A stretch of 64,000 nucleotides of DNA from the NCBI RefSeq assembly GCF_037996825.1, contig NZ_JBBNAC010000001.1, positions 620,001 to 684,000 of the forward strand, in the 5' to 3' direction. Within the stretch, counting starts at the first letter, position 1. Each line of letters starts with the position of its first letter. Position numbers and translations under genes: made by a program. This DNA is from Bdellovibrio sp. BCCA (lineage in GTDB: Bacteria > Bdellovibrionota > Bdellovibrionia > Bdellovibrionales > Bdellovibrionaceae). Below the pieces are notes generated by a model. That model ran no database searches, was not told where the DNA came from, and saw only the letters and a program-made list of their open reading frames with translations. Below are positions 2,805-55,175 of this stretch, one piece after another.

Positions 2805-3560
2805 TTAAACAGGATCAGGAATTGTCATGATCAGCGCGCGGTCTTTCAACACAACCATCGTATGCTCAAACTGAGCAGTTCTATGATTTTTTCCGGCAAC
2901 CAATGTCCAATTGTCAGGCTCCTCATCGACAAAGCGAGCGCCTGTCGAAACAAAAGGCTCAATCGTGATGACTTGTCCTTCTTTGAGTTTGCGGTTGTCA
3001 TTTTTGTCGTAATAACCGGCAATAAATTTTGGTTCTTCGTGAAGTCCGCGACCCACACCGTGACTTCCTAAGTTTTCAATCACAGTGTAACCATTTGCAT
3101 GGGCCACTTTTTCGATGTTGTAACCAATGACGTTGATAAGCTCTTTGGCTTTCACTGCCGCAATCGCCGCATCCAAGGCCTGTCGAGTGACGTCGAGCAA
3201 GCGTTGATAGTCTTTGTTCACCGGAGGAACAATAAAAGATCCTCCGTTATCAGCATAATAACCACCAAGTTCTGCCGACACGTCGATATTGATCAAGTCC
3301 CCTTTTTGAATCACTTTGTCTGACGGCACACCGTGCGCGACTTCGTGATTAAGACTGATGCAATTATAGCCTGGAAAATTATAAGTGAGTTTCGGTCCGG
3401 AACGGGCGCCGTGCATTTCTAAAAACTTGCCACCCAGTTCATCAAGCTCGCGCGTTGTCATGCCGGGCTCCATTTTTCGAGCCATGTACTGCAAACAGTT
3501 CGCGACAACTTTGCCAATCTTTTTTAGACCTTCTAAGTCTGCTTCCGTCTTTACGATCAT
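2805..3560 (-). CDS. map: Type I methionine aminopeptidase
   Basis: 251 residues, the normal length for bacterial MetAP-I. It removes the initiator methionine from new cytoplasmic proteins. All five metal ligands can be placed by eye: Asp93, Asp104 (11 apart as in the family), His167 in LGSHGVGRG, Glu201 in ITIEPF and Glu232 in QFEHT; His76 and His174 match the substrate-binding histidines. There is no Shine-Dalgarno site before the ATG at 3560. Instead a -10-like TATAAC ends 8 bases upstream of it, so the message is probably leaderless or nearly so. The gene is divergent from nnrD, with 25 bp between the two start codons. The pairing is not an obvious functional one. Confidence 0.96.
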   Translation of the reverse strand: MIVKTEADLEGLKKIGKVVANCLQYMARKMEPGMTTRELDELGGKFLEMHGARSGPKLTYNFPGYNCISLNHEVAHGVPSDKVIQKGDLINIDVSAELGGYYADNGGSFIVPPVNKDYQRLLDVTRQALDAAIAAVKAKELINVIGYNIEKVAHANGYTVIENLGSHGVGRGLHEEPKFIAGYYDKNDNRKLKEGQVITIEPFVSTGARFVDEEPDNWTLVAGKNHRTAQFEHTMVVLKDRALIMTIPDPV

Positions 3561-3568
3561 AGACGCTG

Positions 3569-3576
3569 GTTATACA
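3569..3576. promoter_or_regulatory. Shared -10 region of divergent map and nnrD
   Basis: GTTATACA reads TATAAC toward map and TATACA toward nnrD. Each hexamer ends 8-9 bases before the respective start codon (3560 and 3586), and neither gene has a Shine-Dalgarno site. A single near-symmetric -10 element therefore probably drives both genes. No good -35 is visible for either direction. Confidence 0.45.
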
Positions 3577-3585
3577 CTTAAAAGC

Positions 3586-4434
3586 ATGCAAAAATCCACT
3601 GCTCCCACATTTATCTTTAAGAAACAGAGCGCTCGGAAACTTTTACCGGCTGTTTCACCTTCGGATAACAAAGCATCACGTGGACGAAGCCTGCTTTTAG
3701 CGGGAAGTGCTGAGTATCCGGGCGCGGGGATTCTTGCCGCCAAAGCCGCGCAAAGAATGGGGAGCGGGTATGTAACACTCGCACAGAAAAATATTCCGGC
3801 AGCATTGTTAGAAAATCCGGATTTTTTATTGTGCGACCTCAACAAAAAATCCTGGAGGGACGTGCCAAGTGATGCCGTTTTGATCGGTCCCGGTTTTGGG
3901 GTGAATGATTTTACGGCGTCCGTGATTCAGGAACTTAAAGAGAAAAAAATCGAGCGCGTGGTTTTAGATGCTGACGCTCTGACAGTGTGTGCAAAGAAAA
4001 ATCTTTTTCCACTTTTGCCGACGTGGATTGTGACGCCTCATTCAGGAGAACTGGCTCGTTGCTTAAAAATCTCTTCAGAAGAAATTCAAAAAGACCGTGT
4101 GGCGGCTATCGAAAAAGCGCAGGCTCTTTTTCAGTGTGTGGTTTTGTTGAAAGGTCACGGCACCTTGATCGCTAATCAAAAAAGAATTTATAAAATCGCT
4201 TCCGGAAACTCGGCTCTGGCTAAGGCGGGAACCGGGGATGTTTTGGCGGGGGTTATCACGGCTTTAAGGGCGCAAGGCTTATCCCCCATGCGGGCCGCTC
4301 TTTTGGGAGCCTATGTGCATGGCGCGACGGCCAATCTGTGGAAAGCAAATAAACGCGATCTCCTGTCGATGACGGCCTCGGATGTCCTGGATTACCTCCC
4401 TAAGGTGCTCTTTATTCTTCGACGCGGGGCTTGA
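3586..4434 (+). CDS. nnrD: ADP/ATP-dependent NAD(P)H-hydrate dehydratase (NnrD-type, stand-alone)
   Basis: The enzyme repairs S-NAD(P)HX, the hydrated form of NAD(P)H, in the cytoplasm. 282 residues of ribokinase-like fold with the family blocks in order: LLLAGSAEYPGAGILAAKAA, a VLDADAL block, VTPHSGELARCL, VVLLKGHGTLIA and the nucleotide-binding ASGNSALAKAGTGDVLAGVI. The epimerase half found in fused YjeF proteins is absent, so this is the dehydratase domain alone. The frame is open further upstream to 3385, but that stretch lies inside map; the ATG at 3586 is preferred because it leaves 25 bp of intergenic DNA carrying a promoter. No separate epimerase gene is visible in this window. Confidence 0.92.
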   Translation: MQKSTAPTFIFKKQSARKLLPAVSPSDNKASRGRSLLLAGSAEYPGAGILAAKAAQRMGSGYVTLAQKNIPAALLENPDFLLCDLNKKSWRDVPSDAVLIGPGFGVNDFTASVIQELKEKKIERVVLDADALTVCAKKNLFPLLPTWIVTPHSGELARCLKISSEEIQKDRVAAIEKAQALFQCVVLLKGHGTLIANQKRIYKIASGNSALAKAGTGDVLAGVITALRAQGLSPMRAALLGAYVHGATANLWKANKRDLLSMTASDVLDYLPKVLFILRRGA

Positions 4435-37185: not shown

Positions 37186-38268
37186 TTATTTCGTTACAAA
37201 TGGGGTCTTGCACACAACGGCTTTTACTTTGCGGCCGCGAATATCAAGAAGGAATTCTGTTCCCTCTTTCGCATAAGCCACGTCGATAAAAGCGATCCCA
37301 ATAGGTTCATCCAAAGTCGGAGAATGTGTACCACTTGTTACCTTGCCGATTTCTTTGTTGTCAAAAGAAAATAGGCTGTAACCTTGGCGAGGGATACCCT
37401 TCTCAAGCATCTTAAATCCCACAAGATTTTGCTTAAGACCCGCTTCTTTTTTGCCTACAATTTGGGCTTTTCCCATAAAGTCTTTTTTAGCGGGTTTAAT
37501 CACCCAACCAAGACCGGCTTCGTATGGATTCGTCGTGTCATCAATTTCATGACCATATAGAGAGTATTTCATCTCCGTGCGCAAAGTATCGCGAGCGCCC
37601 AGGCCGATGCCCATAACTCCCAAATCTTTACCTTGCTCAAGAAGTGCATTCCAAAGAGCCACTGTGCCTGCAGCTTCAACGAAAACTTCACAGCCTTTTT
37701 CGCCTGTGTAGCCTGTTGTTGCCACCATGATTTTATAATTTTGGAATTCGCCGGTTTTCAAAGTGAAAGATTTCATCTCGCTCACTTTGAATCCGAAAAC
37801 GCGATCGCAAAGTTCCAAAGCTTTCGGTCCTTGAATCGCGATCTGACCCCAACGATCACTCTCGTCAGTCATGTCGGCGCCCTTGTTGTGTTTTGTCATC
37901 CACGCAAAGTCTTTGTCTTTGTTCGAGGCATTTACACACACAAGGTAGTCTTCATTTTTCTTAAGGCAATAAACAATGATGTCGTCAACCAAACCGCCTT
38001 GGTCATTCGGAAGAAGAGAGTATTGAGCTTCGCCATCGTTCAATTTAGCAACGTCGTTTGTTGTCAGCCACTCTAGAGTCTCTAGAGCTTTCGGGCCTTT
38101 CACGCGAACTTCTCCCATGTGAGAGACGTCGAAAAGTCCCACGTTCGTGCGCACGTTGTTGTGCTCTTCACGAAGGCCGATGTATTGAACAGGCATGTAC
38201 CAGCCGGCGAAATCGACCATGCGGGCACCCATTTTTTCATGTGTTTCTGCGAGAGGTGTCTTTTTCAT
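37186..38268 (-). CDS. gcvT: Glycine cleavage system T protein (aminomethyltransferase)
   Basis: 360 residues from ATG 38268, giving the family N-terminus KKTPLAETHEKMGARMVDFA; the frame runs upstream without support. Key features are GWYMPVQY, DVSHMGEVRVKG, the YTGEKGCEVFVEA folate-binding region and LGARDTLRTEMKYSLYGHEI. GcvT transfers the methylene group from H-protein-bound aminomethyl to tetrahydrofolate. It is followed within 10 bases by gcvH. I see no glycine riboswitch in front of it; the ribosome site is weak (AGGA, 11 bases). Confidence 0.94.
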   Translation of the reverse strand: MKKTPLAETHEKMGARMVDFAGWYMPVQYIGLREEHNNVRTNVGLFDVSHMGEVRVKGPKALETLEWLTTNDVAKLNDGEAQYSLLPNDQGGLVDDIIVYCLKKNEDYLVCVNASNKDKDFAWMTKHNKGADMTDESDRWGQIAIQGPKALELCDRVFGFKVSEMKSFTLKTGEFQNYKIMVATTGYTGEKGCEVFVEAAGTVALWNALLEQGKDLGVMGIGLGARDTLRTEMKYSLYGHEIDDTTNPYEAGLGWVIKPAKKDFMGKAQIVGKKEAGLKQNLVGFKMLEKGIPRQGYSLFSFDNKEIGKVTSGTHSPTLDEPIGIAFIDVAYAKEGTEFLLDIRGRKVKAVVCKTPFVTK

Positions 38269-53837: not shown

Positions 53838-55175
53838 CTAAAGCGTGAATTTAAAGTCCTTGATTAGCATACCGGGAACCTTTTTTCCACCGAAAGCGCG
53901 GCTTTCATAGGTAGAAACCATCGGATCGACCTCTTGGAAGTCCGTGACGGCCAAAAGATTTTCGCCAAGGCAGTCGTAAAGGCTCTCATCAAAACGCAAA
54001 TCCGCAATGGGAGCGACGATTTCGCCGTTTTCCACCCAGAAACACGCATAACGAGTCATTCCGGTAATACGAGCATTCATACGATCTGACCAGTTCAAAT
54101 AGTGAAGATTTGACAGGTAAAGACCCGTGCCGAGTTCCTTTAAGATCTCTTCGCGTTTCAGTCCACCCGGCAGAATCTCCATCGCACGAGGATATTCACC
54201 GACATCCGCCGCATTTCCTTGAACGCCGTACTCTTTGGCAGAACGAGAGCTTGTCAGGAAATTCTTAAGCTCACCGTGAGAAATCAAATCCATTGTTTCC
54301 GGAGCCAATTCACCCAAAGAATTAAAACGGTGAGTCAGACCCATGCCGTAGTTCTCACGCAAGGAAAACTTCTGCGACAAAGTTTTTTCTTTGTCGGCAA
54401 GTTTCTGCATGGAGCTTCCACCTTGTTTGTAACCATTAAAGCTCAAAGAACCCCAAGAGAACATCGAAGCCATTTCAGCCACAGCTCCCGGAGCCAAGTA
54501 AGTGCGATAAGCACCTGGCTTTAAAGTCATCTTTGGACGCTCCATCAAGCGCAATTGATTTTTACTTTGTGCTAAGTTCGCATCGAAATCTTTTTGATTC
54601 CAAGCTGTGCCCGCATAGATCGACTTCACGGCTTTTTCACCCATATAAAGTGAATAATCCATAAAGAAGTTTTCTGTCGCAAACCAGTGACTTTGCCCCT
54701 TGGAATTTTTATTTCCCGTTAAAAGAGGACCACCACAATAAAGTCCCGCAAGGTCCGTTCCCTGAGCAGGGGCCGTGATTGCAGCAATGACTTTTTCATC
54801 CGCCAACAAGTCACCTTTAAACGTGTTGTCACTTGTGCCGTTGTTCGTAAGAGCCACTTGGTAAGGATCTTCCGGCAAAAGGTCACACTCTTTGCGAGCT
54901 TGTTCGAGCCAATGATCCGCGCGTTTTTTATCTTCGTCGGCTTGGCCCGTAATAGAAAAACTTAAGTTCGCAGTCTTCCCATTTTTTTGCAAAGTTAGAC
55001 CCAGAGTTCTTTGTTCAACATGTGTGTTCTGACGAACTTTGTTGCCGTTAAAACGCACGAACAAAGATTCTTCTGCATTCAAATTAATATTAGCGTCTTC
55101 GCCGTTTTTCAAATTTCCAAGCAAGTGATCAGCAACAGCGTTGAAGGCTATTTTCATATTCTCAGTAAAATTCAT
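53838..55175 (-). CDS. TldD/PmbA family protein, PmbA (TldE)-type
   Basis: 445 residues from ATG 55175. It matches the PmbA/TldE side of the family: a long N-terminal helical part (ENMKIAFNAVADHLLGNLKN), SYLAPGAVAEM-type region (RTYLAPGAVAEMASMFSWGS), and a C-terminal ARITGMTRYACFWVENGEIV. It lacks the HExxxH zinc motif that is present in the partner gene upstream, as expected for TldE. TldD/TldE form a heterodimeric peptidase. Its start is one base from the tldD-like stop. Confidence 0.88.
   Translation of the reverse strand: MNFTENMKIAFNAVADHLLGNLKNGEDANINLNAEESLFVRFNGNKVRQNTHVEQRTLGLTLQKNGKTANLSFSITGQADEDKKRADHWLEQARKECDLLPEDPYQVALTNNGTSDNTFKGDLLADEKVIAAITAPAQGTDLAGLYCGGPLLTGNKNSKGQSHWFATENFFMDYSLYMGEKAVKSIYAGTAWNQKDFDANLAQSKNQLRLMERPKMTLKPGAYRTYLAPGAVAEMASMFSWGSLSFNGYKQGGSSMQKLADKEKTLSQKFSLRENYGMGLTHRFNSLGELAPETMDLISHGELKNFLTSSRSAKEYGVQGNAADVGEYPRAMEILPGGLKREEILKELGTGLYLSNLHYLNWSDRMNARITGMTRYACFWVENGEIVAPIADLRFDESLYDCLGENLLAVTDFQEVDPMVSTYESRAFGGKKVPGMLIKDFKFTL

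Follow-up and report, generated by a model that had tools for sequence, protein, structure and literature searches.

The short gap between the divergent genes map and nnrD of Bdellovibrio sp. BCCA contains the element GTTATACACT, which very probably forms the core of a single bidirectional promoter of the housekeeping type. It combines two putative -10 hexamers on opposite strands, which share a TA and would serve a near-leaderless map message in one direction and a leaderless nnrD message in the other. Judged by comparison of genomes, the element is not a product of chance, being symmetric and fixed across the genus at saturated divergence.

Organization of the map-nnrD intergenic region

The window, that is, the whole stretch of 64,000 nucleotides under analysis, lies at 620001-684000 on contig 1 of a genome of 4.0 Mb (G000). 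It includes the following two genes:

2805..3560, minus strand: map, type I methionyl aminopeptidase, 251 aa (TIGR00500, Peptidase_M24)
3586..4434, plus strand: nnrD, ADP-dependent NAD(P)H-hydrate dehydratase, 282 aa (TIGR00196, Carb_kinase PF01256)

The first-pass annotation had named both genes from the sequence, and these identities are borne out by scores above the cut-offs: 261 bits for map against TIGR00500 (cut-off 171) and 187.8 bits for nnrD against TIGR00196, the NAD(P)H-hydrate dehydratase family (cut-off 129.85). A second, distant map paralogue with 31-36% identity occurs in almost every genome of the genus, in this one at G000:C1:1243599-1244330 (L029). The start codons of map (3560-3558, minus strand) and nnrD (3586-3588, plus strand) are separated by the gap 3561-3585, consistent with the 25 bases originally reported. 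Also correct is the remark that neither gene has a ribosome site: neither start shows a Shine-Dalgarno (SD) site, and among the 18 tightly spaced map-nnrD pairs of the genus described below, SD-like words occur upstream of nnrD in two and of map in one. In the Bdellovibrio sp. BCCA genome itself, an in-frame stop lies inside the predicted map -10, upstream of the ATG, and thus the map start cannot lie further upstream.

Within the gap, GTTATACA (3569-3576) had been proposed to contain a -10 common to both genes, read as TATAAC on the minus strand (3574-3569) and TATACA on the plus strand (3571-3576). These words do end 8 and 9 nt before the respective ATGs, as claimed. The plus-strand hexamer, however, was placed two bases off: the conserved one is TACACT. 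The core can be described as follows:

3569..3578, not assigned to one strand: predicted shared bidirectional promoter core GTTATACACT, which reads AGTGTATAAC on the minus strand; TTATACACT is invariant in 18/18 tight pairs
3569..3574, minus strand: predicted map -10 TATAAC, 8 nt before the map ATG; TATAA is invariant in 18/18
3573..3578, plus strand: predicted nnrD -10 TACACT, 7 nt before the nnrD ATG; sequence and spacing are invariant in 18/18

Conservation of the shared element

A full map orthologue was found in 21 of 24 genomes of the genus (59-100% identity). In 17 of these 21, nnrD starts 25 or 26 bp from map, and an eighteenth tight pair, in G019, was found by pattern, giving 18/24 genomes. 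The pair is split in G013 (gap 895) and G023 (gap 52), which form a sister pair in the map tree (support 99/98) and thus represent one lineage rather than two independent tests. G002 and G012 have map and nnrD at separate places; G022 has nnrD and no map match at 1e-60, and neither gene was found in G017 (88% complete). In other genera of the family, map and nnrD are apart wherever both were found.

The invariant TTATACACT is preceded by G in 15 tight pairs and by T in three, and the rest of the intergenic columns around it are variable; G001 carries the TTTATACACT form. The conserved block is the exact union of TATAAC (map) and TACACT (nnrD) on opposite strands. The two hexamers overlap only in TA, which is self-complementary and kept in all 18 pairs, so that key -10 positions on opposite strands overlap reciprocally, as in bidirectional promoters. 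What stands of the initial proposal is therefore one element with a -10 per strand, as the comparative data indicate; the hexamers share no more than TA, and map probably has a leader of 2-3 nt instead of being strictly leaderless.

The invariance of TTATACACT does not reflect a lack of divergence, since four-fold sites of map in the Bdellovibrio sp. BCCA genome are only 28-51% identical to those of the other 16 rows of the alignment. Only one of 53 such sites is invariant, namely, that of codon 3. The same data bear on the idea that the symmetry is accidental, a feature of the A+T-rich gap of one genome. Short -10-like words are indeed common: in 464 kb sampled from this genome (the window and 20 further stretches of 20 kb each, L052-L071), TACACT occurs 86 times and TATAAC 95 times with both strands counted. 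Yet invariance in 18/18 pairs at saturated divergence refutes chance as a full account and leaves it a negligible probability. The conserved decamer might alternatively serve as a site for a regulator acting on both genes, and not as a pair of -10 hexamers. This would fit a short intergenic block that is so strongly conserved, and also the single occurrence of the 9-mer TTATACACT in the 464 kb (both strands), which indicates that it is not a common promoter word. We consider a regulator site very unlikely, given that the spacing to nnrD is fixed at 7 nt, that the block equals two -10 hexamers, and that split genes each retain a -10-like word at start-codon distance, not the decamer. A coding role for the element was also considered and is ruled out by the 1-bp change in gap length (25 bp in some genomes, 26 in others), with no frame kept.

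The predicted nnrD promoter extends into map codons

In the nnrD direction, TACACT is accompanied by a putative -35 hexamer located within the map gene:

3550..3555, plus strand: predicted nnrD -35 TTTACG, within map codons 2-4; in 18/18 pairs, 17 or 18 bp upstream of TACACT

The distance between the two hexamers is 17 bp in pairs with 25-bp gaps and 18 bp in those with 26-bp gaps, which agrees with the 17 +/- 1 bp of a housekeeping sigma factor. Each hexamer matches its consensus at four of six positions (TACACT to TATAAT, TTTACG to TTGACA). A simple promoter scan did not return the map-nnrD site in its output.

TTTACG is the complement of map codons 2-4, and comparison of genomes reveals a constraint on these codons. 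They read ATC GTA AAG in all 17 full rows of the alignment. Among the 132 map codons with an invariant amino acid in these rows, only five (2, 3, 4, 6 and 67) are codon-identical, and the probability that codons 2, 3 and 4 would all fall among the five by chance is 2.7e-5. General freezing of codons at the start of genes is ruled out for three control genes, gcvP (16 rows), the window gene at 53841-55175 (17 rows) and gcvH (17 rows), where codons 2-4 are never jointly frozen. A feature related to the translation of map is rejected as well, given that genomes with a split pair have other codons here, ATT ATC AAG in G013 and ATC GTT AAA in G023. Where the genes are apart, comparable nnrD promoters can be recognized, namely TTTACC-17-TAGAAT-7 in G013, TTTACC-17-TAGACT-7 in G023 and TTTACC-18-TAAACT-6 in G012 (the last number being the distance to the start codon). 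Thus, as far as can be read from these sequences, the nnrD promoter moves out of map intact upon gene separation, and each separated gene keeps its own promoter near its start.

The map direction

The case for transcription of map from the shared element is weaker, since no -35 accompanies TATAAC, the sixth base of the -10 is C or A rather than T, and the hexamer lies 8 or 9 nt from the ATG across the tight pairs, versus the usual 6 in its relatives. At 17 +/- 1 bp no -35 is recognizable, the mean best match being 2.56 of 6 positions versus 2.50 in shuffled sequences. It is thus conceivable that only nnrD starts here and that the map message begins farther upstream, within nnrD, and carries a leader independent of an SD. 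Such a one-way promoter would explain why nnrD has both a -35 and a -10 and map has no -35, and would sit well with a distance from -10 to map ATG that is longer than in relatives. We nevertheless regard it as improbable on three grounds. First, the TTA upstream of TACACT is invariant in 18/18 pairs, yet nnrD does not need it in G013, G023 and G012, whose nnrD -10 is not preceded by TTA; only a map -10 explains its presence. Second, TATAA followed by C or G is retained near map in the split genomes (TATAAC in G013 and TATAAG in G023, each 6 nt before the ATG). Third, TANNNT is found exactly 6 nt before the map ATG in seven of 11 loci of the other clade, comprising G002, G012 and nine from other genera (five family matches without a locus were left out). 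An SD-like word is present in three of the 11, one of which (L038) also has TANNNT. In L021 (G002) and L032 (G034), map is preceded by an SD-like site and lacks a -10-like word close to its ATG, suggesting that the leaderless state was gained or lost within the family.

Predicted start sites and probable leaderless genes

Under the preferred reading, a bidirectional promoter, start sites can be predicted from the 7-bp optimum between -10 and transcription start site (TSS) reported for bidirectional promoters (PMC12825309):

3561..3562, minus strand: predicted map start-site region, TSS at about 3562, 2-nt leader
3585..3586, plus strand: predicted nnrD start-site region, TSS at 3585 or on the ATG

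The 7-bp rule places the two sites, 3562 and 3585, 23 bp apart, which would correspond to the 23-bp configuration of a bidirectional promoter. TATAAC would fire leftward into map and TACACT rightward into nnrD, with RNA polymerase bound in one orientation at a time; in the nnrD orientation, it would also contact TTTACG within map codons 2-4. The nnrD message would begin on the start codon or one base before it, and that of map would have a leader of approximately 2-3 bases, so that both would be translated without a Shine-Dalgarno site. Comparison of sequences establishes the element, its spacing and conservation, the constraint on the map codons and the move of the nnrD promoter on gene separation. 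From these we infer the positions of the start sites, activity in both directions and mutual exclusion of the polymerases. The last point is in keeping with the description in PMC12825309, according to which two polymerases cannot bind at once and compete for shared -10 elements rather than being co-recruited. With a shared -10, the two directions would then be competitors at high activity and would not increase in parallel. The suggestion that the arrangement couples the removal of methionine to the repair of NAD(P)HX is accordingly unsupported: the pairing is confined to one clade (18/24 genomes), the genes are apart elsewhere in the family where both were found, and shared -10 elements are reported to compete.

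Both genes lack a Shine-Dalgarno site, as expected of leaderless messages. The predicted -10 is 7 nt from nnrD in 18/18 pairs, within the 6-7 nt at which such words are enriched in the same genome, and 8-9 nt from map. This suggests that nnrD is leaderless and map probably near-leaderless, with a 2-3-nt leader. The enrichment was determined in the 464-kb sample with our own simple gene caller, based on codon log-odds and ORFs of at least 80 aa, which yielded 393 genes, 198 with an SD-like word and 195 without. Of the genes without SD, 24 have TANNNT ending 6-7 nt before the start, an approximately fourfold enrichment over the roughly 6.2 predicted by offsets farther away (Poisson P 5e-8); of those with SD, only three do. 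Leaderless genes thus very probably exist in this organism, judging from the position of these words, which is consistent with a 2011 survey whose row for delta-Proteobacteria gives 8 of 33 genomes and a mean of 15.8% (PMC3160421). Among the called genes of the window, the start of gcvT (minus strand) overlaps that of a divergent plus-strand gene by two bases (38267-38268) and is probably a wrong start.

A second symmetric pair

Strict symmetric patterns are more frequent in the whole genome than their reversed controls, with 54 forward and 50 reverse matches versus 30 and 35 for one pattern and 37 and 37 versus 26 and 26 for another. Most raw matches are not between two genes. We inspected 135 pattern matches among the matches listed, counting overlapping patterns apart and leaving out a few places on the second contig (G000 contig C2; 209,039 bases, possibly a plasmid or chromid). 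Open frames of at least 50 codons with positive coding scores on both sides were found, among the matches listed, at L124, L226 and L260. The candidate in L226 (G000:C1:2267592-2267622) is a strict symmetric match flanked by frames of 73 codons and at least 198 codons, the latter running off the stretch.

L124 contains a second symmetric pair, CATTTCTCTATGCTAAGGCAATG, at G000:C1:208036-208058 (about 1501-1523 of L124), outside the window. It belongs to the TANNNTA pattern of the 18-bp class and is laid out as CAT-TTCTC-TATGCTA-AGGCA-ATG between divergent genes of 209 and 206 aa, neither of which has a Pfam match. Its hexamers, TATGCT and TAGCAT, each lie 6 nt before their own start codon, so that start sites would fall on the two ATGs, 18 bp apart. 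CAT(4-8)TATGCTA(4-8)ATG is present at this position in 24/24 genomes of the genus and a stricter pattern in 22/24; the gap is 17 bp in 22 genomes and 18 bp in two. TTGTTT is kept at 17-18 bp in 23/24 genomes, again inside the codons of the opposite gene, and matches TTGACA at only three of six positions. In the other direction, the -35 match scores 4.1 versus 2.6 in shuffled sequences.

It is about an even question whether Bdellovibrio keeps a class of such ultra-compact divergent pairs, in which 7-10 bp would be the whole non-coding core for two (near-)leaderless messages and the first codons could double as the -35 of the partner. Protein, translation start and both promoters would then be encoded over the same 40-60 bp and evolve as a unit enforcing mutual exclusion of the two transcription directions. 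The putative leaderless class of the genus, seen as TANNNT enrichment at starts without SD, is worth mapping.

Comparison with known systems

Bidirectional promoters are known mostly from TSS maps of a few model bacteria, where selection on symmetry is hard to read. At map-nnrD, the element comes apart into its components once the distance between the genes increases, and one component can be seen in the neighboring protein as a constraint on silent sites. Together with genus-wide fixation at saturated divergence, this allows selection on a shared -10 to be measured in the sequence itself. The pair also illustrates the degree to which promoter and coding information can be packed together if the messages require no leader.

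Both bidirectional promoters and divergent leaderless pairs are already known, the latter from Mycobacterium tuberculosis. Among the best matches listed from the open literature, we found no description of this pair or of doubly leaderless shared -10 elements, and none of a -10 that serves two (near-)leaderless genes in combination with a -35 buried in the codons of the partner and genus-wide fixation. Attack-phase promoters of the FliA (sigma-28) type, described in the same group of organisms (PMC3627812), have the consensus TTAAG-N16-CCGATA, which is absent here, the map-nnrD region containing no CCGATA when read directly; the published HD100 start-site map covers, according to that source, attack-phase promoters only. 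The control regions of the EcoRV and CfrBI restriction-modification systems likewise combine divergent genes with overlapping core promoters, in their case with coupled transcription (PMC5333194). They differ from map-nnrD in being regulated by a C protein, and the EcoRV C transcript is not leaderless. Closer in layout are prpD and Rv1129c of M. tuberculosis, adjacent divergent genes whose messages are both leaderless; the same source calls closely juxtaposed divergent promoters common (PMC3898074). They belong to another phylum, and the passage describing them is silent on one shared -10.

The closest parallel is provided by the bidirectional promoters described by Warman, Grainger and colleagues in Escherichia coli and Salmonella, in keeping with the first-pass statement that divergent transcription from symmetric -10 elements occurs in bacteria. 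In E. coli, 18 bp is the most frequent distance between divergent start sites, and 10 and 23 bp are common as well (PMC12825309); map-nnrD resembles these promoters in the overlapping key bases of its -10 hexamers and its predicted 23-bp spacing. This predicted distance would also fall within the 7-25 bp reported in PMC10268837, and, like bidirectional promoters of the Salmonella chromosome in that study, the element is intergenic between divergent genes. A text search of PMC12825309 returned none of the words leaderless, conserved and conservation. Unlike the E. coli and Salmonella promoters, the map-nnrD element would produce (near-)leaderless messages, carries a predicted -35 inside the codons of the other gene and has a sequence fixed throughout the genus.
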